Shown: piece after piece, positions 43,815 through 60,960 of the stretch
Position numbering within the stretch: the first letter of the stretch is position 1
Layout: every line of letters starts with the position of its first letter
Source: Ponticaulis koreensis DSM 19734
GTDB lineage: Bacteria; Pseudomonadota; Alphaproteobacteria; Caulobacterales; Hyphomonadaceae
Length of the DNA stretch: 64,000 nucleotides
Assembly (NCBI RefSeq): GCF_000420665.1
Contig: NZ_ATVJ01000001.1
Span: 1,364,001-1,428,000, forward strand
Direction of reading: 5' to 3'
Notes under the pieces: model-generated
What the model was told of the DNA's origin: nothing
The model's input: the letters and a program-made list of their open reading frames with translations, nothing else
Database searches by the model: none
Position numbers and translations under genes: made by a program

Positions 43815-44321
43815 GTGTCTGATAGTGAAAAACTGGACCAGCGTATTCAGCTGGTCGCTTCAAAAGAGTTCGGACAGAAGGTTGATGCCTGGCGTCGTGG
43901 TCAGGATGATCTGCCGTCTCGTTCAGAGGCGATCCGTCGTCTTGTCTATCTTGGGCTTGTTCATGAAGAGGAATTTCCGATGCGCCTGATCACAGCCATC
44001 ATCCGGCCGCACAAATATGAAGCGGTTCGCGAGGCACTCGCAGAACTCGGCGTTACGGGGATTACGGCAAGTCAGGTGACAGGCTTTGGTCGTCAGCGCG
44101 GTCAGACAGAGATGTATCGCGGCGCGGAATACGAAGTAAAAGAAATTCCGAAGGTGAAGATCGAAGTGGCGGTCCCATCTACAATGCTGGAAACCGCGCT
44201 TCAGGCGATCACACAGACGGCTGAAACCGGCAAAATCGGTGACGGCAAAATCTTCGTCACCTCACTTTCTGGCGCCGTACGAATTCGTACTGGCGAACGT
44301 GACGAGAAGGCGCTGATCTAA
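43815..44321 (+). CDS. ribbon-helix-helix domain fused to P-II nitrogen regulatory protein
   Basis: A 168-residue protein starting at GTG 43815. Residues about 7-50 are a ribbon-helix-helix DNA-binding type segment (RIQLVASKEFGQKVDAW, PSRSEAIRRLVYLGL). Residues 56-168 are a complete P-II protein: MRLITAIIRPHKYEAV, the T-loop TEMYRGAEYEV with the uridylylation Tyr (residue 106; Tyr51 in P-II numbering), and TGKIGDGKIFV plus RIRTGERDEKAL. A second start is plausible: the ATG at 43980 (P-II Met1) has GAGG 8 bases upstream, so a free P-II of 113 residues could also be made. No ammonium transporter or glnA gene is adjacent. P-II proteins sense ATP/ADP and 2-oxoglutarate; the RHH part suggests a DNA-binding output. 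Confidence 0.85.
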   Translation: MSDSEKLDQRIQLVASKEFGQKVDAWRRGQDDLPSRSEAIRRLVYLGLVHEEEFPMRLITAIIRPHKYEAVREALAELGVTGITASQVTGFGRQRGQTEMYRGAEYEVKEIPKVKIEVAVPSTMLETALQAITQTAETGKIGDGKIFVTSLSGAVRIRTGERDEKALI

Positions 44322-51049: not shown

Positions 51050-51775
51050 ATGTCTTTTACGAAGCGATATAAGCTCTTATTCGTGACTGCGGTTTCCGCG
51101 CTGGCGCTGGCGGCATGTTCTGATCAGGGTGCAGACGAGCATGCCGACATGAACCATGATGGAATGGACCATGCGTCCATGGATCACGGCTCTATGGACC
51201 ATTCCGGTCACGAAGGCATGGAAATGGCGAATGCGAATACGCCGTCTTATGGCGCCGCGGAGTATGTTGCTGACTTTACGCTGATGGGCAGTGACGGCCA
51301 GATGCATACGCTGAGTGATCATTCCGATGCACCAGCAGTCGTTCTGATGACGCACGGTGTGGGGTGCCCGATCGTGCGTAATGCCGTGACTGATTACAAA
51401 GAACTCGCTGCGCAGTTCGAGGATCAGGGTATCCCGTTCTACATGATCAATTCCAATATTCAGGACGACATTGACGAACTGGCCGCGGATGCTGAGCTTT
51501 ATTCCATCACCATGCCAATTCTGGATGACGAAGATCAGTCGGTTGGCCGTCAGATGGGGTATGACCGTACCGCCCAGATTTACGTGCTAGACCCGTCAGA
51601 TGATTTTCGCGTCATGTATTACGGCTCGCTCAATGATCGCCAGACTTATGAGCGCCAAAGGAATGAAGCCCAGAATCATTTCGCAGCAGAGGTTCTGAAC
51701 CAGATGCTGGCAGGCGAAGAGGTTACCGTAACGGCACCTGCGATCAGAGCGGGATGTATGATTAACTTTCTCTGA
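51050..51775 (+). CDS. His/Met-rich redoxin lipoprotein (short form)
   Basis: A 241-residue lipoprotein (signal AVSALALAACSDQ, lipid Cys 23) with a Met/His-rich segment at about 31-62 (MDHASMDHGSMDHSGHEGMEM) of the kind that binds copper. A redoxin/AhpC-like domain follows (about 72-225) with VVLMTHGVGCPIVRNAV (Cys 106), FYMINSNIQDD and DRTAQIYVLDP. It ends at the conserved IRAGCMINF (Cys 236). The next gene contains the same module almost word for word, then continues into cytochrome and monooxygenase domains, so this gene is a one-module paralogue. GGGAGGAAGG lies just upstream of the ATG. Confidence 0.82.
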   Translation: MSFTKRYKLLFVTAVSALALAACSDQGADEHADMNHDGMDHASMDHGSMDHSGHEGMEMANANTPSYGAAEYVADFTLMGSDGQMHTLSDHSDAPAVVLMTHGVGCPIVRNAVTDYKELAAQFEDQGIPFYMINSNIQDDIDELAADAELYSITMPILDDEDQSVGRQMGYDRTAQIYVLDPSDDFRVMYYGSLNDRQTYERQRNEAQNHFAAEVLNQMLAGEEVTVTAPAIRAGCMINFL

Positions 51776-51877: not shown

Positions 51878-53947
51878 ATGGCTGTTTTTAAACGAGGCAA
51901 TTTGCTTGTCGCGACTGCGTTCACTGCGCTTTTGCTGGGCGCATGTTCGCAAGAAGGCGGAGAAGACCATGCGGCTATGGATCATTCCGCCATGGATCAC
52001 TCCGGTCATGATGGCATGGTTATAGCGACGGCTGCGACGCCTGTCAGCGGCCCGCCGGAATATATCGATAACTTCCGCCTGATCGATCATAACGGCGACA
52101 GCCATGAGCTGTTCTACCACGCAGACGCTCCTGCGGTGGTGCTAATGACGCACGGTGTCGGCTGCCCGATCGTGCGCAATGCCGTTACCGATTATAAAGC
52201 GCTGCGCGACCAGTTCGCGGATCAGGGCGTTCAGTTCTACATGATCAACTCCAACATTCAGGATGATCGTGACGAGATCGCTGCTGACGCCGAGCTTTAC
52301 GGCATTGATATGCCAATCCTTGATGACGTGACCCAGCTGATCGGCGAGTCCATGGGCTATGACCGTACAGCGCAGGTTTACGTGCTGGATCCGGCGCAGG
52401 GCTTCAAAGTCGTCTATTATGGCGCGCTGAATGATCGTCAGACTTATGAGCGTCAGCGCAATGAAGCCAACAACCACTTTGCGGCAGATGCTATTTCGCA
52501 GGTGCTGGCGGGCGAAGACGTCACGGTTGAGGCACCCGCTATTCGCGCTGGTTGCATGATCAACTTCCCGGAGCAGCGCAATCAGGCAGAGCATATGCAA
52601 ATTTCTTATGCTGAAGAGATTGCGCCTATCCTGCGCGAGAACTGCGCTGAGTGTCACCAGGAGGGCGGTATCGGCCCTTGGGCGATGACCGATTACGAGA
52701 CTATTCAGGGCTGGGCGCCGATGATCCGCGAAGTGGTTCGCACGGATCGTATGCCGCCCTGGCATGCTGACCCGTCTATCGGCACATTCCATAATGCGCG
52801 TGACCTGACTGTCGAAGAAACGCAGACGCTGGTTCACTGGGTTGAAGCTGGCGCACCGCGTGGTGAGGGCGAAGACCCACTGGCCGGTCTTGATCTGCAT
52901 GCGCCGGACTGGCCGCTTGGTGAGCCGGATCTGATCCTGACGCTTCCTGCCTACACCGTGCCAGCAACAGGTGTTGTCGATTATGCTTATCCGGTCGTGG
53001 AAAATCCGCTGACTGAAGATACATGGCTGCGTGCTACGACAGTTCGAGCCGGCAACCGCGAAGTCGTCCACCACGTGCTGTCTGGCTATATGTCTGAAGT
53101 CCCTGCAGATGGGCGCGGTTCGACATCGCTCTGGGAATTCTCAACCGGCGGCTATGCTGTGGGTGCTGAATCTACCGTGGCGCAGGAAAACTCCGGCGTG
53201 CCATTCCCTGCAGGCGGCGCAATTGGCTTCCAGATGCACTACACGCCTGTGGGCCGTGAGATCGTGGATCAGACACAGATCGGTTTCTACTTCCAGGAAC
53301 AGCCGGAGCTTCTCAACCGGACTGTCGTAATTCTGGATGCAAGCCTCGACATTCCAGCGAATGAGCCGCGTCACGTCGAGACGGCTTATCTGGAATTTCC
53401 GTATGACGCAGAGCTGATTTCGGCATTCCCGCACGCACACTATCGTGGCTATGCGTCCGATCTGCGTATCCAGTATCCGGATGGAACTGAAGAAACGCTT
53501 CTTTCTCTGCCGCGCTATGACTTTAACTGGCAGCGTGGATACGAGTTTGAAGAGCCGGTCTCCATTCCTGCGGGATCGCGCCTGATCTCGGATTATGTCT
53601 ATGACAACTCCAGCGCCAATGCGGCGAACCCTGATCCGAACATTCAGGTGACATGGGGCGAGCAGAGCTTTGAAGAAATGCTCTATACGTCACTGTCTTT
53701 CCGCTGGGTGGGTGAGACGACGGACAACCGTCTCGATCACCAGTCAGCTGAAATGAACGAGACGCGCATGTTCACCGCTATGGATGATAATATGGATGGA
53801 CAGCTCACTGAAGACGAGCTGACGGGCATGTTGGGTAGCCGTATGCGCGCCGGCTTTGGCCGTATGGATCTTGACGGAAACGGCTCTGTAGACATGGAAG
53901 AATATGTCACGGTGAACCGGATGATGCGTGCACGCGGTCAACAATAG
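51878..53947 (+). CDS. redoxin / cytochrome c / copper monooxygenase-like / EF-hand fusion lipoprotein
   Basis: A 689-residue envelope lipoprotein (lipid Cys 23). Domain order: Met/His-rich segment (about 30-50, MDHSAMDHSGHDGM); redoxin (about 60-215, Cys 96 in THGVGCPIVRN, Cys 226 in IRAGCMINF); cytochrome c-like module (about 238-330) with the haem motif CAECH (Cys 256, 259, His 260) and Met-containing TDRMPPWHADP; a dopamine-beta-monooxygenase-like C-terminal domain (about 350-620, VVHHVLSGYM, PFPAGGAIGFQMHYTPVG, FPHAHYRG with possible copper His); then two EF-hand loops (DDNMDGQLTEDE and DLDGNGSVDMEE) near the end. Likely periplasmic copper- and electron-transfer function; substrate unknown. 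Confidence 0.85.
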   Translation: MAVFKRGNLLVATAFTALLLGACSQEGGEDHAAMDHSAMDHSGHDGMVIATAATPVSGPPEYIDNFRLIDHNGDSHELFYHADAPAVVLMTHGVGCPIVRNAVTDYKALRDQFADQGVQFYMINSNIQDDRDEIAADAELYGIDMPILDDVTQLIGESMGYDRTAQVYVLDPAQGFKVVYYGALNDRQTYERQRNEANNHFAADAISQVLAGEDVTVEAPAIRAGCMINFPEQRNQAEHMQISYAEEIAPILRENCAECHQEGGIGPWAMTDYETIQGWAPMIREVVRTDRMPPWHADPSIGTFHNARDLTVEETQTLVHWVEAGAPRGEGEDPLAGLDLHAPDWPLGEPDLILTLPAYTVPATGVVDYAYPVVENPLTEDTWLRATTVRAGNREVVHHVLSGYMSEVPADGRGSTSLWEFSTGGYAVGAESTVAQENSGVPFPAGGAIGFQMHYTPVGREIVDQTQIGFYFQEQPELLNRTVVILDASLDIPANEPRHVETAYLEFPYDAELISAFPHAHYRGYASDLRIQYPDGTEETLLSLPRYDFNWQRGYEFEEPVSIPAGSRLISDYVYDNSSANAANPDPNIQVTWGEQSFEEMLYTSLSFRWVGETTDNRLDHQSAEMNETRMFTAMDDNMDGQLTEDELTGMLGSRMRAGFGRMDLDGNGSVDMEEYVTVNRMMRARGQQ

Positions 53948-53975
53948 GCCTTATTGCACAATTTCTGATCAGTGG

Positions 53976-54006
53976 AGGGCGGCGCATTATTGCGTCGCCC
54001 TTTTCT
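53976..54006 (+). terminator. rho-independent terminator after the redoxin fusion gene
   Basis: GGGCGGCGCA / TGCGTCGCCC (one G-T wobble) with a TTAT loop, followed by TTTTCTT, 30 bases past the stop. Confidence 0.85.
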
Positions 54007-54410: not shown

Positions 54411-57400
54411 ATGAAAACTGTATTGTATTCATCCGTCGCACTTGTGTCTCTTGCCGCCGCAGGCAGCCTTTCTGTCGCGCATGCGCAAGACAGCTATGAC
54501 GTCGCTACTGCTGAAGAGTCTCCGTATGCATCACGCGCAACAGCGCAGTGGGGCAATCTGGATACATTTTGGGGTAATCTCGACACCTTCGAGGGCGACG
54601 TATCCGGGCAGTGGGGTAATCTGGACACGTTCTGGGGTAATCTCGATACATTCTGGGGTAACCTCGATACCTTCTGGGGTAATCTCGATACCTTCTGGGG
54701 TAATCTCGACACCTTTAATGGCGACGCTGCGGCCCAGTGGGGTAATCTCGATACGTTCTGGGGAAATCTGGATACGTTTTGGGGCAACCTCGATACATTC
54801 GGCGGTGATGCGTCCGCGGAATGGGGCAATCTCGACACCTTCTGGGGTAATCTCGACACCTTCGATGGCGTGATCGTCACGCAATGGGGCAATCTGGATA
54901 CATTCGGCGATTCAACTGCCCAATGGGGCAATCTGGATACGTTTTGGGGCAATCTCGACACGTTCTGGGGTAACCTTGATACATTCTGGGGCAACCTCGA
55001 TACCTTTGATGGCAATCCTGCAGAAGCGCTTTGGGGTAACCTTGATACATTCTGGGGTAATCTCGATACTTTCTGGGGTAATCTCGATACTTTCTACGTC
55101 GCCTTTTCGGTTCCGGACGGATATGATCCGGAGACCTATTACGGCCTGTTAGACCCGCAGTGGGGCAATCTGGATACCTTCTGGGGTAATCTTGATACCT
55201 TTAACGGCAATCTCGATACGACATGGGGCAACCTCGACACGTTCTGGGGCAACCTCGATACGTTCTGGGGCAATCTCGACACGTTCTGGGGTAATCTCGA
55301 TACTTTCTGGGGCAATCTCGACACGTTCTGGGGTAACCTGGATACCTTCTGGGGCAATCTCGATACGTTCGAAGGCAATGAGGAGGCTTATGCGCAGCTT
55401 CTGTCAGATCTCGGCTCATTCTATAATCTGAGCCAGGATCAATATGCGCCGCTCGTTGCGTTCCATACCGGTCAGGATTTCTGGTCGGGTTTCGCTCAGG
55501 AAATCTTCGAGCGCTATGGTATCGATCCAACTGATCCGGCATCTCTGGCAGAGCTTTCAGCCGTCGAGCGTGCCCAGTTCTTCGTGGACTGGCATGATGG
55601 TCTGATGATGTTCAACGGCATCGACATTGTTGATGGCTGGATGCCGACAATCAACTGGTCTCCGGCGCTTACTCAGGACCATGATTACAATACGCAGGCT
55701 GTTATTGGCCTTCTCGATTTCGGCGTCACAGACGAAACCCTGCTGACGCACGATGTAATTTATTCCGGCGGATACGACACGGCGGATACGTCTACACACG
55801 GTTCAGCGGTTGTGAGCCTTCTGGTCGCGCCTCACGATGGTGTCGGCATTATGGGCATCGCGCCAAATGCAAGCGTCGCCGTTTATAACCCGTTTGATGA
55901 AACCCTGACCGCAGGTTGGGAAGACGTTGAGACGGGTGTGCATGCGCTCGTCGACAATGGTGCGCGCATTATCAACATGTCTCTTGGTGTTCCTGAAACA
56001 CTGATCTCCGAAGAGTGGGCAGACATCATTTCCGGCGTCGATAATGAAGGCGTTGTCTTCATCAAGGCGGCTGGCAATGAAGGTGTTACCGGCACAGACG
56101 TTGAGTGGGCGGATGATGGTAGCCTCGAGCAGCTAATCATCGTTGGTGCGCTCGGCTTTGATGGTGAGATCGCAGACTGGTCCAATACGCCAGGCGATGC
56201 CTGCTTCATCGTTGATGGCGATTGCAGTGCGGTGATGAATAATTTCATCGTCGCGCCAGGCGAATTCATCCTCGTATCTGATGGCAATGGTGGTGTTATG
56301 CGTCAGGCGGGTACGTCATTTGCTGCGCCTCTGGTCTCTGGTACAGCCGCGCTTATCCATGGTGCCTGGCCTTGGTGGAAAGACCATGCCGAGGAAACCG
56401 TTGATGTGATCCTTCGGTCTGCAACTGACCTTGGCGAAGAGGGCGTTGATGAAGTCTATGGCTGGGGCCTCCTGAATGTAGAAGGTGCACTGTCGCCGCT
56501 CAATTGGAGCCGCCTGCGCTTCTACGCAGACCATGACGGTGATGGCGACTTTATCGGTGGCTGGCGTGGTAAGTCCGCAAACTGGATCCGTCGCGCATAT
56601 CTCCGCTCAGATGTGTTGCAGCTTGAAAACGATGGTGCGTATGTCGTGGCGCTCGAGAGCGTTGGCGACACATTCCGCGACTTCCGTATCCCGCTATCTA
56701 CCCAGCTCTACGGAACAGAATCTGTTATTGATGGTGTAGAGCACGATCGCCGCTTCCAGCGTCACCTGCATCAGCGTTTCGTTGATTGGGCAAGCGAAGG
56801 GTCAAACTTCGGCGACGTTCAAAGTACTTCGGTCAATCTTGGTCTGAATGGTGACTGGGCTCTGTCTATGCAGGCCGCACCATACACGCCGGGTTCTGAT
56901 GTGCGTGAAGGTGAGCTTCCGTTCCAGACAGACATCATGTTGTCCGCGCCAGAAAGCCAGACTGCGTTCCGCTTTGGTCATGGCGACGGTGCTGCGCGCC
57001 TCAGCTCTAACCCTGTCTTTGGCTTCTACTCAGACTTTGACGTTGAAACTGGTGGTGTGAACCCGCTGCTGGGGCTCGCGTCTGGTGGCTCTTATGCCTC
57101 TACGCAATTCGCTGTGAGCGAGCGCCTGTCGATCTCTGCAAGCGTGACCGAAGCGTCTGACGATCATTCGTATATTGATCCGCTGACAGGCCAGCGCGTT
57201 TATAACGCGGATGATCTGGTCGACTTCAATGCGAGTGCGGCGAATATTTCTATGAATTATGCGCTGACCGGTCACCTGAACCTTTCTGTCGACTACACTC
57301 AGTTGACCGAGCGAGACAGCCTTTTGGGCGGTCAGGGCACCGGCTTCCTTTCGCTTGAGGGCGGGAGCGTTACCGATGCTGTGACACTTGGTTCTGATGT

Positions 57401-57851
57401 CGACCTTCCATTCGGCATGCAGCTCGGCCTGTCTGCAACGGTTGGCGAAACACGCGGTACCAGCTTTGCTGACGGTGCGCTGTCTCTGAGCGATGAGGGG
57501 CTGACATCGACTGCCTTTGCGATTGGTCTTCGCAAGGATGGTCTGATCGGTGATCACGACACATTCCGCCTGAGCGTTGCGCAGCCTCTGCATGTTGAGG
57601 CCGGGTCGTTTGAGTTTACGACGCTCGAAGTTGTGAACCGTGAAACCGGGGAACTCGGTCTCGTCTCCCAGACATGGGGCGTGGCTGACACAGGTCGCGA
57701 TTATAATCTCGAAGCGAGCTACGGCACTGCTCTGATGGCCGGTATGGCTGAAGTCTCTGCATTCTCTCGCGTCGAGTTTAATGAGACGCCGATCGCAAAT
57801 GAATCTGAAACAGATTACGCGGTCGGAGCGCGGTTTGCTATTCGCTACTAA
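54411..57851 (+). CDS. subtilase autotransporter with WGNLDTF heptad array
   Basis: A 1146-residue secreted protein from the ATG at 54411 (GGAG 7 bases upstream); an ATG at 54378 would add 11 residues before the signal. Domains: signal peptide (MKTVLYSSVALVSLAAAG...AHA); 29 perfect WGNLDTF heptads plus one altered (NGNLDTT) at about 47-320; a helical linker; an S8 peptidase with Asp 436 (GLLDFGV), His 463 (THGSAV) and Ser 636 (GTSFAAP); a passenger spacer with an Asp-rich calcium-type stretch (DHDGDGD); and a C-terminal autotransporter barrel (about 870-1146) ending VGARFAIRY. The protein should be exported across the outer membrane, with the repeat array on the outside or in the passenger. 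Function of the repeats is unknown. Confidence 0.9.
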   Translation: MKTVLYSSVALVSLAAAGSLSVAHAQDSYDVATAEESPYASRATAQWGNLDTFWGNLDTFEGDVSGQWGNLDTFWGNLDTFWGNLDTFWGNLDTFWGNLDTFNGDAAAQWGNLDTFWGNLDTFWGNLDTFGGDASAEWGNLDTFWGNLDTFDGVIVTQWGNLDTFGDSTAQWGNLDTFWGNLDTFWGNLDTFWGNLDTFDGNPAEALWGNLDTFWGNLDTFWGNLDTFYVAFSVPDGYDPETYYGLLDPQWGNLDTFWGNLDTFNGNLDTTWGNLDTFWGNLDTFWGNLDTFWGNLDTFWGNLDTFWGNLDTFWGNLDTFEGNEEAYAQLLSDLGSFYNLSQDQYAPLVAFHTGQDFWSGFAQEIFERYGIDPTDPASLAELSAVERAQFFVDWHDGLMMFNGIDIVDGWMPTINWSPALTQDHDYNTQAVIGLLDFGVTDETLLTHDVIYSGGYDTADTSTHGSAVVSLLVAPHDGVGIMGIAPNASVAVYNPFDETLTAGWEDVETGVHALVDNGARIINMSLGVPETLISEEWADIISGVDNEGVVFIKAAGNEGVTGTDVEWADDGSLEQLIIVGALGFDGEIADWSNTPGDACFIVDGDCSAVMNNFIVAPGEFILVSDGNGGVMRQAGTSFAAPLVSGTAALIHGAWPWWKDHAEETVDVILRSATDLGEEGVDEVYGWGLLNVEGALSPLNWSRLRFYADHDGDGDFIGGWRGKSANWIRRAYLRSDVLQLENDGAYVVALESVGDTFRDFRIPLSTQLYGTESVIDGVEHDRRFQRHLHQRFVDWASEGSNFGDVQSTSVNLGLNGDWALSMQAAPYTPGSDVREGELPFQTDIMLSAPESQTAFRFGHGDGAARLSSNPVFGFYSDFDVETGGVNPLLGLASGGSYASTQFAVSERLSISASVTEASDDHSYIDPLTGQRVYNADDLVDFNASAANISMNYALTGHLNLSVDYTQLTERDSLLGGQGTGFLSLEGGSVTDAVTLGSDVDLPFGMQLGLSATVGETRGTSFADGALSLSDEGLTSTAFAIGLRKDGLIGDHDTFRLSVAQPLHVEAGSFEFTTLEVVNRETGELGLVSQTWGVADTGRDYNLEASYGTALMAGMAEVSAFSRVEFNETPIANESETDYAVGARFAIRY
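54549..55370 (+). repeat. coding array of 29 WGNLDTF heptads
   Basis: Runs of identical heptads in nine blocks (2, 5, 3, 2, 1, 4, 3, 2, 7 copies), interrupted by short acidic spacers starting mostly with a Gly/Asp pair (EGDVSGQ, NGDAAAQ, GGDASAE). Synonymous codons vary between copies (GAT/GAC, CTC/CTG/CTT, TTC/TTT, AAT/AAC), so the residues, not the DNA, are preserved. Spacing is strictly 21 bases inside blocks. Confidence 0.95.
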
Positions 57852-57891
57852 ATCGCGGAACAGAAATAGCTAAACTATAGATAGAATAAGG

Positions 57892-57923
57892 GCCCGCCGA
57901 TACTTGAATTCGGCGGGCTCTTT
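57892..57923 (+). terminator. rho-independent terminator after autotransporter
   Basis: GCCCGCCGA / TCGGCGGGC with a 9-base loop followed by TCTTTT, 41 bases past the stop. Confidence 0.85.
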
Positions 57924-58035: not shown

Positions 58036-60507
58036 ATGAAGACCCGGATCAGGCAGCTCGCGATTGGGTTCGCGTTGTCGGTGTTGGCTGTCATGCCGGG
58101 CACTGCGCAGGGCGTTGTTGAACGCGTTGAAGGTGAGCTTTTCGTAGACTGGACGCGCTACGAAGAAGCGGTCAACGCATCACGCTCTGCTATGATGGGA
58201 GCACCTGCGGAAGCCTTGGAAATGGCGCAGGAAGCTGAGATTCATATTCCGATCAATGCGCCTGAAAGCGAACGTTCGACTGCACTTGCCACCGTGCTCT
58301 GGCTGCAAGCCGAGGCCCAGACGCGAAGTAATGATCCCCGTGCCGCAGAACCTCTGGTCGCGCGTGCGCTGGAGTTGATTGAGGGCCGCAACCAGACAAC
58401 GACGATCCGCGGAGATTTGCTACTCGCACAAGGGCGTATTCAGCAGGCTCTTGGCAATACCCAGATGGCTTTTGCCAGCTTTATCGACGCTTATGAAGAA
58501 TACCGACTGCAGGACTGGGCTAGAGGGCAGGGGGTTTCTCGCCAGAAAATCGGTGATCTCTACAATGATGCGCGCGATTTTGAACGCGCTATTGAGAACT
58601 ATGATTTGTCGATGGAGGTCTACGACCAGGAACCTCCGATGACGATGGTGACTGAGAATAATCGCGCCAATGCACTGCGCGGCCTGGAGCGATACCGGGA
58701 AGCAGAAGAACGTTATCGCCGCGCGCTTGATATTGCACGGACGCTTAATTCACCGCACCTCGTTGCGCGCATTCTCACGAATATCGCGCACACTCAGGTT
58801 CTGGGTGGCGATTATGCCTCGGCTGAGGCGACCGCTGATGAAGGTCTTGCGCTTATGCCGGAAGGGGAATCCTCTGGATGGGAGCCATTCTTGTGGGGGG
58901 TGAAAGCCGAGGTTGCCTTCGAGCGGCGTGATATCCCCAACGCCCGGCGCTATATCGCCCGCACATTTACAGGGATGGATCTGACGACGACCCCGATGCC
59001 ATTCCGTGAAATGCACGAAACGGCCTATCGGATTTATCAGGCCGCGCTTCAGCCCGAAACGGCGCTCGCCCACCTTGAAGCCTTCAAGCGACTGGAGGAT
59101 GAGGCACTTGGTCTGGCCGCGTCGGCCAACTCGGCCCTGATGGCCGCACAGTTCGATTTCGCTAATCAGGAGCTTGAGATCGAGCAGCTGGAAAGCGAAC
59201 GCCTGCAACAACAGATCCAGATCGCCGAAGCCGAAACCCGTCAGCGGACCATTCTCTTTGCATCCGTCGGTTTCGGTGCCGTGTTGATTTTCGGCTTCCT
59301 CCTGGCGGGCTATGTCTCGGTTCGCAAAAGTCGCGATGCGATTGGCCGCGTCAACGAGAAGCTCAACGCGACGAATGTCGAGCTCGAACGTGCAAACAAA
59401 GCCAAGTCCGAATTCCTCGCGACGACCAGCCATGAAATCCGAACGCCTTTGAACGGTATTCTGGGCATGTCTCAAGTGCTGCTGCAGGATGGATCGCTGA
59501 ATGACGAGATGCGCGACCGGCTTCGCGTTGTCCAGTCCGCGGGCAAGTCGATGAAGGCGATTGTTGATGATCTTCTGGATGTCGCCAAGATTGAAACCGG
59601 CAATGTCAGTGTTGAGATTGCTCCGTTTGAAACCCCACGCCTTTTTGAAGAGGCAACGCTTCTCTGGCGGGGGGAGGCGGAGTCTAAAAACCTCACCCTT
59701 GATGTCGAGCTGAGCGACATACCGGAGCTGGTTGAGTCCGATGAGCAGCGCCTGCGTCAGGTCATGTTCAACCTGCTTTCAAATGCCGTAAAGTTTACAG
59801 AAGAAGGCGGTGTCGTGCTGCGCGCCTATTGCGAAGCAGATGCGGACGGCAATGACATTCTACGCATCGCCGTGCACGATACCGGCATTGGTATTCCTGC
59901 CGATGAGGTTGAGAATATCTTTAAACCATTCCACCAGGTCGATGGTGCGATGACCCGCAAATATGCGGGCACAGGCCTCGGCCTCTCAATCTGCGAAAAC
60001 TTCGTCAAAGCTATGGGCGGAACGATCTCTGTAGAGAGCGAGCTCGGCGTTGGCTCCGAATTTACCATTATTGTACCGGTACAAGTGCCGGAACAGCCTG
60101 CTGAAACCGCGCCTAAATCAGCGGGCGCTGGTGCAGCGACGTCTGTCGATGAGGTCAATTTGCTCGTCTTCCAGGATGACTTCATGCAGAAAATGATCTT
60201 CGAGGCGTTTTTCTCTGATGAAGTTGCATCGGTGCTTGTCTCTGATTCAGAAGAAGAATTTGCGCAAGCCTTAGCGTCGGGTGTCTATCACATGGCGTTT
60301 ACGAACCGGCCGTCATCCCCAAAGTTGAAACCTGACGAATCAACTCGGCTATTCATATGGGATGAAGTCGGGAATTCTGATGTACACGCTGAAGGTGAAT
60401 ACGAGCCGGAGAATATTTTCAGGTTGGTGAAGGCTGAATTTCCTGAAGATGAAAATTCATCACAATTGAATTCTCCACAGGTTTCAGACCCTATTTCTGC
60501 CGGTTGA
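58036..60507 (+). CDS. TPR-sensor histidine kinase with C-terminal pseudo-receiver
   Basis: A membrane hybrid kinase of 823 residues. Signal peptide (MKTRIRQLAIGFALSVLAV...), a periplasmic TPR-like region (about 40-350, EEYRLQDWARGQGVSRQKIGDLYNDARDFERAIENYDLS), a coiled segment ending in a membrane helix (about 405-428), then HisKA (His 466 in ATTSHEIRTPLNGIL) and HATPase (NLLSNAVKF, DTGIGIP, GTGLGLS). From about 706 a receiver-like domain lacks the acceptor Asp (Asn 757 in HMAFTNRP) and ends in an Asp/Glu-rich tail. A canonical stand-alone receiver gene follows 75 bases later, probably as its real phosphate acceptor. Confidence 0.87.
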   Translation: MKTRIRQLAIGFALSVLAVMPGTAQGVVERVEGELFVDWTRYEEAVNASRSAMMGAPAEALEMAQEAEIHIPINAPESERSTALATVLWLQAEAQTRSNDPRAAEPLVARALELIEGRNQTTTIRGDLLLAQGRIQQALGNTQMAFASFIDAYEEYRLQDWARGQGVSRQKIGDLYNDARDFERAIENYDLSMEVYDQEPPMTMVTENNRANALRGLERYREAEERYRRALDIARTLNSPHLVARILTNIAHTQVLGGDYASAEATADEGLALMPEGESSGWEPFLWGVKAEVAFERRDIPNARRYIARTFTGMDLTTTPMPFREMHETAYRIYQAALQPETALAHLEAFKRLEDEALGLAASANSALMAAQFDFANQELEIEQLESERLQQQIQIAEAETRQRTILFASVGFGAVLIFGFLLAGYVSVRKSRDAIGRVNEKLNATNVELERANKAKSEFLATTSHEIRTPLNGILGMSQVLLQDGSLNDEMRDRLRVVQSAGKSMKAIVDDLLDVAKIETGNVSVEIAPFETPRLFEEATLLWRGEAESKNLTLDVELSDIPELVESDEQRLRQVMFNLLSNAVKFTEEGGVVLRAYCEADADGNDILRIAVHDTGIGIPADEVENIFKPFHQVDGAMTRKYAGTGLGLSICENFVKAMGGTISVESELGVGSEFTIIVPVQVPEQPAETAPKSAGAGAATSVDEVNLLVFQDDFMQKMIFEAFFSDEVASVLVSDSEEEFAQALASGVYHMAFTNRPSSPKLKPDESTRLFIWDEVGNSDVHAEGEYEPENIFRLVKAEFPEDENSSQLNSPQVSDPISAG

Positions 60508-60582: not shown

Positions 60583-60960
60583 ATGAAAATCTTATTCGTC
60601 GAAGATGATGCTATGAACCGACGCGTGGTGAAAGAAATGCTCACCGCCGCACGGATCGAAATGCATGAGGCGGAAGATGCTCCTACCGGTCTGAAAATGA
60701 TTGATGAGGGAGACTTCGACCTCATCCTTATGGACTTACGCATGCCGGGTATGGACGGCATGGAGGCGATCAGTCGCATCCGTGCGCGAGACGATGAAAA
60801 AGGCAAGCTGCCGATCATTGTCGTGACTGCGGATACGGCGCTTAATCTGCGCGGACAGTGTCTGGAGCAGGGTGCTGACGAATTTTTGATCAAGCCTGTT
60901 GAAGTACGCGCTCTGTTTGAAACGATTGCGTATACTATAGCCAAGCGTAAAAAGGCGTAG
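60583..60960 (+). CDS. single-domain response regulator (CheY/DivK type)
   Basis: A 125-residue receiver with no output domain. Canonical residues: acidic pocket VEDDAMNRR, acceptor Asp 51 in LILMDLRMPGMDG, Thr in IVVTAD and Lys in FLIKPVEV. Located directly after the hybrid kinase, whose own receiver lacks the acceptor Asp; the pair reads as a split phosphorelay. The sequence resembles the small cell-cycle or adaptation receivers of alphaproteobacteria, but no specific orthologue is claimed. Confidence 0.9.
   Translation: MKILFVEDDAMNRRVVKEMLTAARIEMHEAEDAPTGLKMIDEGDFDLILMDLRMPGMDGMEAISRIRARDDEKGKLPIIVVTADTALNLRGQCLEQGADEFLIKPVEVRALFETIAYTIAKRKKA

Follow-up and report, generated by a model that had tools for sequence, protein, structure and literature searches.

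Why should a bacterial gene spell out the same seven residues 29 times, directly ahead of a protease? The question is raised by an open reading frame (ORF) of the marine bacterium Ponticaulis koreensis DSM 19734 (order Caulobacterales), which lies in a stretch of 64,000 nucleotides of contig NZ_ATVJ01000001.1 (positions 1,364,001 to 1,428,000; hereafter the window, with coordinates counted from its first letter). Its product carries an array of WGNLDTF heptads in front of an S8 subtilase. The adjoining gene (58036-60507), which had gone unnoticed in a first-pass annotation of this DNA, encodes a membrane sensor with a tetratricopeptide repeat (TPR) half. We found that the two genes form a conserved module, and together they may constitute a peptide signalling system not described before. 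The first gene is laid out as follows:

54411 to 57851, + strand: whole ORF (1146 aa), with signal peptide, heptad array, helical linker, S8 subtilase and C-terminal beta domain
54411 to 54485, + strand: probable signal peptide MKTVLYSSVALVSLAAAGSLSVAHA, read from the sequence by eye
54549 to 55370, + strand: heptad array, 29 WGNLDTF units in nine blocks, with mostly seven-residue degenerate heptads and one 22-residue insert between them
55377 to 55619, + strand: helical linker from array to protease (residues 323-403), conserved in the family, from alignment and model
55620 to 56498, + strand: S8 subtilase domain (residues 404-696)
55716 to 55718, 55797 to 55799 and 56316 to 56318, + strand: catalytic triad Asp436, His463 and Ser636, bases read from the sequence
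56640 to 57848, + strand: predicted beta-strand domain at the C terminus, from residue 744 and ending ARFAIRY; probable outer-membrane barrel

By eye, the N terminus of the ORF shows a Lys, a hydrophobic stretch and AHA/Q. WGNLDTF then occurs exactly 29 times, in blocks of 2, 5, 3, 2, 1, 4, 3, 2 and 7 units along the array, and one more copy is degenerate (NGNLDTT). The 29 units are written in 23 distinct DNA sequences, with codon variation at G, N, L, D, T and F and zero amino-acid differences. The first-pass annotation had reported these copies, blocks and synonymous codons and concluded that the heptad is held at the protein level, all of which we confirmed; Tandem Repeats Finder independently marked the same span, 54549-55370. 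The 'short acidic spacers' that it described do separate the blocks, but their nature is different: most have seven residues with Gly at position 2 (EGDVSGQ, NGDAAAQ, GGDASAE, DGVIVTQ) and are thus degenerate heptads in register. The whole region is therefore a heptad lattice, with the 22-residue insert as its main exception. No repeat-family model of Pfam or NCBIfam matched the array, only S8 models matching the protein, and no paper naming the heptads was found in the literature searched, in agreement with the first-pass annotation, which had put no family name to it.

The protein is an S8 peptidase by profile (PF00082, E 1.6e-31, 110 bits against a gathering cut-off of 21.8), by its triad and oxyanion Asn, and by its modelled fold. 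D436, H463, S636 and the oxyanion residue Asn556 were invariant across 53 family members. In the AlphaFold model, residues 404-696 adopt the subtilisin fold (VIA-align Z about 33 to subtilisins, root-mean-square deviation 2.2 over about 256 residues), and helices span residues 302 to 424. One of the best structural matches is 1bh6, in which an Ala-Pro-Phe inhibitor accompanies a subtilisin. At the C terminus (residues 744-1144) many strands were predicted, with confidence mostly above 80, and nearly all complete C-termini among relatives end in F or Y, as expected of an outer-membrane beta-signal. The window protein gave no hit to Pfam Autotransporter (PF03797) up to an E value of 1, and a scan of 45 C-terminal domains, for which 25 families were listed, did not bring up this model; a PDB sequence-profile search with the domain returned no match. 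The order of signal peptide, array and S8 domain, and the complete triad, stand as annotated. Since no family member scanned matches Pfam Autotransporter, however, the 'autotransporter barrel', and autotransport with it, are putative. One lineage of the family is without the beta domain; two array-plus-S8 proteins of 632-634 aa in genome G721, outside the window's order, lack it (L117, L118).

The array is not confined to one gene. It forms the N-terminal domain in a family of S8 proteins that a profile built from the linker and the S8 domain detected in 56 of the 398 genomes of the order. The same profile found the family in 2 of 385 genomes of a class sample outside the order and added no new members in a phylum sample. 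In nearly all copies with an intact N terminus (74 non-redundant copies) the array directly follows the signal peptide, and genome searches agreed with the expectation that it always precedes this S8 family. Its consensus is [WY] G [DN] [IL] [DNS] [PA] F, and two thirds of units have Pro as their sixth residue. Divergent arrays are built from WGEIYAF, AWRDIEAF (nine-residue period), WGSIDPI, YGNVSPL, DLHIDPL, EMHLDPL or SLHIDPL. Some copies of the family have no more than 5 units. In one single-contig genome (G015, L042), the S8-heptad gene with the WGEIYAF array is split into three ORFs by apparent frameshifts.

A search with the consensus array located it in no other protein family of the genomes covered: beyond ORFs of this S8 family, the matches were fragments at contig ends, opposite-strand readings, a broken copy and a single weak match. 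We rejected free-standing heptad proteins: the small ORFs of G117, G231, G240 and G166 look like contig-end gene fragments (checked for G117, judged from coordinates and short open frames for the other three), and further short matches were opposite-strand readings of the same DNA. A plasmid search gave only general S8 similarity, below 32% identity among the best matches listed.

At P4 subtilisins favour a hydrophobic residue and at P1 a large hydrophobic one, and their standard substrate ends in Ala-Ala-Pro-Phe. The last four residues of the unit read [ILV]-x-[PAST]-[FL], which is L-D-T-F in the window. When 67 arrays were scored, [ILV]-x-[P/A/S/T]-[F/L/W/I] was dominant in all 67. Because P4 and P1 were fixed in the search pattern and P2 was left free, P2 is the sole unbiased count; it was Pro in 51 arrays, Ala in 10, Ser in 3 and Thr in 3. 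The motif is kept in WGEIYAF, AWRDIEAF, DLHIDPL and YGNVSPL arrays, and its fit to the subtilisin P4-P1 preference in all arrays, also those that do not start with WG, is suggestive. With TPR distance controlled for, proteins of similar heptad composition tend to have similar S8 cores (r 0.30, P 0.002) but not similar barrels; nearness within the gene could contribute to this covariation. To judge from its sequence, the heptad looks like the protease's own cleavage site. With this fit and this covariation, the 'self-cleavage or prodomain scaffold' comes closest among the functions that the first-pass annotation had guessed.

The partner gene and the element that lies between it and the S8 gene are:

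58036 to 60507, + strand: sensor gene, with N-terminal signal sequence, TPR region (about residues 37-400), membrane segment, HisKA and HATPase_c
57888 to 57922, + strand: terminator-like hairpin followed by a T-rich stretch (-25.3 kcal/mol, z -5.2)

TPR_12 matches lie in the TPR half of the sensor, and a relative of this half was found beside the S8 gene in 34 of 40 neighbourhoods. The two genes were on the same strand in all pairs tested, with the TPR gene usually within 200 bases downstream (upstream in two loci, L173 and L176). Among the six neighbourhoods without an adjacent TPR gene, two are contig ends and two hold second copies whose sister copy is partnered; the others are a second copy in G721 and the frameshifted S8 gene of G015, whose TPR gene lies elsewhere in the genome. 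That TPR gene is about 600 kb away and adjoins a GGDEF-EAL gene (L195). In G721, one of the two S8 genes has a TPR-kinase gene upstream, and in G340 three tandem S8-heptad genes share a single downstream TPR-kinase gene (L171).

Across 249 genomes of the order, 37 had both genes, one the TPR gene alone (G198), none the S8 gene alone and 211 neither (P about 2e-43; G117 was scored S8-positive from its contig-end array). G198 is the sole sampled genome with the TPR sensor and no detectable S8-heptad gene; there, an epoxide-hydrolase-like gene adjoins the sensor (L194). Genomes with two S8 types have a separate TPR type for each (11 of 11 nearest neighbours agree), and three array types each travel with their own TPR type. 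Whatever its function, the array is a conserved, undescribed domain, and throughout the order it appears tied to a single family of proteases and a single family of sensors.

The output of the sensor is interchangeable. Another family of the order has seven loci in which the TPR half carries GGDEF-EAL domains in place of a kinase. A constant TPR input half with a changing output is the pattern expected of a dedicated sensor of the S8-array protein. Six loci have a separate GGDEF-EAL gene near the S8 gene; TPR-less genes of this kind were seen where the TPR sensor is a kinase (L155, L165, L166, L167, L171, L179), which suggests cyclic di-GMP (c-di-GMP) as a shared output. Among the sequence relatives that the TPR domain has in the PDB is LGN/GPSM2, a protein that binds extended peptides.

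How the array changes between species can be followed within the genus. Units are WGNLDTF in the window, WGNLDSF in L039, L040 and L041, WGSLDTF in L013 and L014, and WGDLESF in L015. Odd units are rare, and all copies of an array change together between species; the degenerate copy NGNLDxx retains GNLD even where all other units changed. Orthologous arrays of 22-30 units in the independently assembled L039, L040 and L041, and in further genomes of the genus, rule out the assembly artefact that had been considered at first.

The window protein and its L039 and L041 relatives are about 98% identical in the post-array core, with a synonymous divergence (dS) of about 0.31. At synonymous sites, however, matching units are no more alike than random pairs, whereas the same comparison between L039 and L041 shows agreement (0.73, P below 0.001). 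Codon identity between the window and L039/L041 is 0.40-0.49 in the spacers, against 0.81-0.82 in the core (P below 1e-6), and 0.40-0.54 for spacers and units of the window's array together; the edges of this mosaic break near residues 45 and 345. Because spacers and units are equally diverged at synonymous sites, we rejected, as the simplest account, that 29 copies went from S to T in parallel after the separation from L039/L041: the array looks imported or replaced as a block, and replacement from a diverged allele is the simplest reading of these sequences. No donor was found. Block replacement covers one switch, but not the uniformity within a species alongside synonymous diversity, and this points to selection for sameness of the peptide.

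What, then, might so uniform an array be for? Our leading reading, held tentatively and at less than even confidence, is that the array is processed by the protease into heptapeptides, which the TPR sensor then detects. The first protein has an N-terminal array, a helical linker, an intact subtilase and usually a putative outer-membrane barrel at its C terminus. Each heptad would end in a good subtilisin site, L-D-T-F in the window, and the subtilase, in cis or on sister molecules, would cut after each Phe. Many copies of a single heptapeptide (here WGNLDTF) would thus be freed. The periplasmic TPR domain of the adjacent membrane sensor would bind the peptide, or the uncut array, and drive the histidine kinase or, in another lineage, GGDEF-EAL enzymes of c-di-GMP. 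Cleavage, release and TPR binding are what we infer, together with what the output controls. Somewhat less confidently still, we propose a Gram-negative module in which one outer-membrane polypeptide would be both a 29-copy heptapeptide precursor and its maturing protease, read by a periplasmic TPR sensor with interchangeable outputs, and in which pheromone types of species would differ because units switch together or blocks are exchanged.

Several points weigh against heptapeptide signalling. Many members mix several heptads in one array, so that only a part of them would yield a single pure peptide per species. An extracellular passenger would require the peptide to cross back to the periplasmic TPR domain. 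Covariation of heptad and TPR half was marginal once the S8 core was controlled (r 0.11, P 0.12), and in the window the terminator-like hairpin stands between the two genes. The low-confidence strands that AlphaFold placed at seven-residue spacing in the isolated array leave a folded array possible, and [IL] and F could be conserved as a hydrophobic core.

The same motif and the same covariation with the S8 core would also suit a sacrificial prodomain or timer, whose pseudo-substrates would hold the protease's own active site inhibited until chewed through, with peptides as a by-product and the TPR sensor reporting on the envelope or the protease. The array is placed where subtilase prodomains sit, and the model shows a helical linker ahead of the S8 domain. 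An inhibitor would not need 29 identical copies, however, and it accounts neither for the joint switching of residues between species nor, by itself, for the near-perfect co-occurrence with the TPR gene. We regard it as doubtful, though worth keeping in view.

Conserved adjacency and co-occurrence of the TPR sensor, and LGN/GPSM2 among its relatives, would also fit a signal carried by the intact array, if the TPR superhelix bound the uncut array or sensed its export or folding, and so monitored assembly of the protease. On this account the subtilisin-like motif would be a coincidence, and the weak covariation between heptad and TPR half counts against it as well; we consider it improbable. Quite unlikely, too, is a structural or adhesive surface repeat (a beta-solenoid, a stacked aromatic ladder or a sticky fibre), uniform since identical units stack best, with the sensor regulating attachment through c-di-GMP. 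GGDEF-EAL outputs near some copies would suit such control, and the seven-residue periodicity of the short modelled strands would suit such a fold. Their confidence is low, however (pLDDT 52 and pTM 0.51 for the array alone, pLDDT below 50 in the full chain), Pro at position 6 disfavours strands, and there are copies with 5 units and proteins without a barrel. The ligand- or metal-binding fibre, or adhesive, that had been suggested from the sequence alone gained no positive evidence, and AlphaFold gives the array no confident fold. Finally, that uniformity reflects only concerted evolution of a neutral low-complexity linker at the DNA level, by slippage or gene conversion, would fit the variable unit number of close species (22-30) and the fact that L039 and L041 differ by some turnover within the array, but is very improbable and already contradicted by synonymous sites that are free while residues are fixed: units differ at these sites about as much as random pairs, adjacent ones no less (which also led us to reject recent homogenisation), the spacers diverged as well in the window's mosaic, and the array is conserved across an order.

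The closest precedent for heptapeptide signalling, by analogy, is the Rap-Phr family (PMC11343458). Its TPR receptors recognise short peptides that are released from secreted propeptides, in which as many as 8 identical copies can occur. Shared with these RRNPP systems are a TPR receptor linked to the peptide gene and a repeated short peptide in a secreted precursor, and processing by extracellular proteases would be a further common feature. RRNPP propeptides are small separate proteins, whereas the array is fused to its protease in one polypeptide; RRNPP receptors are cytoplasmic (a Rap 3-helix bundle or HTH plus TPR), whereas the window's sensor is membrane-bound, with a periplasmic TPR half and a kinase or GGDEF-EAL output. 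The pair is not a member of the Rap-Phr family. Ssp of Serratia marcescens, an S8 autotransporter (PMC9977779), likewise has a signal peptide, an S8 domain with full triad and a C-terminal beta domain with a terminal aromatic residue. The sections of its description that we consulted place a beta-helix after the protease and mention no N-terminal heptad array (PMC9977779); the window protein, in contrast, has the array first, then a helical linker, and belongs to a family with no Pfam Autotransporter match. The best general S8 matches in NCBIfam, the TIGR03921 mycosin and TIGR03895 PatA-type models, were far below curated cut-offs, and those proteases have no array or partner in common with the window protein. 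With two-component sensors and GGDEF-EAL proteins of periplasmic input, the partner shares the common HisKA/HATPase or GGDEF-EAL membrane-sensor output, but it differs in its TPR input half, which both linkage and phylogenetic profile connect with the heptad-S8 gene.

Further features of the window are:

60583 to 60960, + strand: stand-alone receiver-domain protein
53974 to 54003: strong hairpin then T-rich stretch shortly before the start of the S8 gene (z -4.7 by folding); probable terminator of the gene ahead of it
51050 to 51775 and 51878 to 53947: two AhpC/TSA-type proteins, tandem paralogues whose N-termini are rich in Met, His and Asp and might bind metal; in the second, a haem-like and EF-hand region is fused on
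43815 to 44321: ORF with a ribbon-helix-helix-like N-terminal segment in frame with a PII (GlnK-like) protein, either a fusion or the effect of an upstream start

Receivers similar to the 60583-60960 protein lie near the S8/TPR pair in many other genomes, and response regulators, plus GGDEF-EAL genes in some loci, are the only recurrent third genes at S8 loci. The AhpC/TSA, MBL and SRPBCC-like neighbours of the window had no match in 40 S8 neighbourhoods.

If the array is a self-processed precursor, communication by TPR-read peptides would extend to Gram-negative bacteria, with precursor and protease in one molecule. For evolution, the family poses a testable problem, namely how the 22-30 copies of a motif can switch residue in concert and yet remain diverse at synonymous sites.

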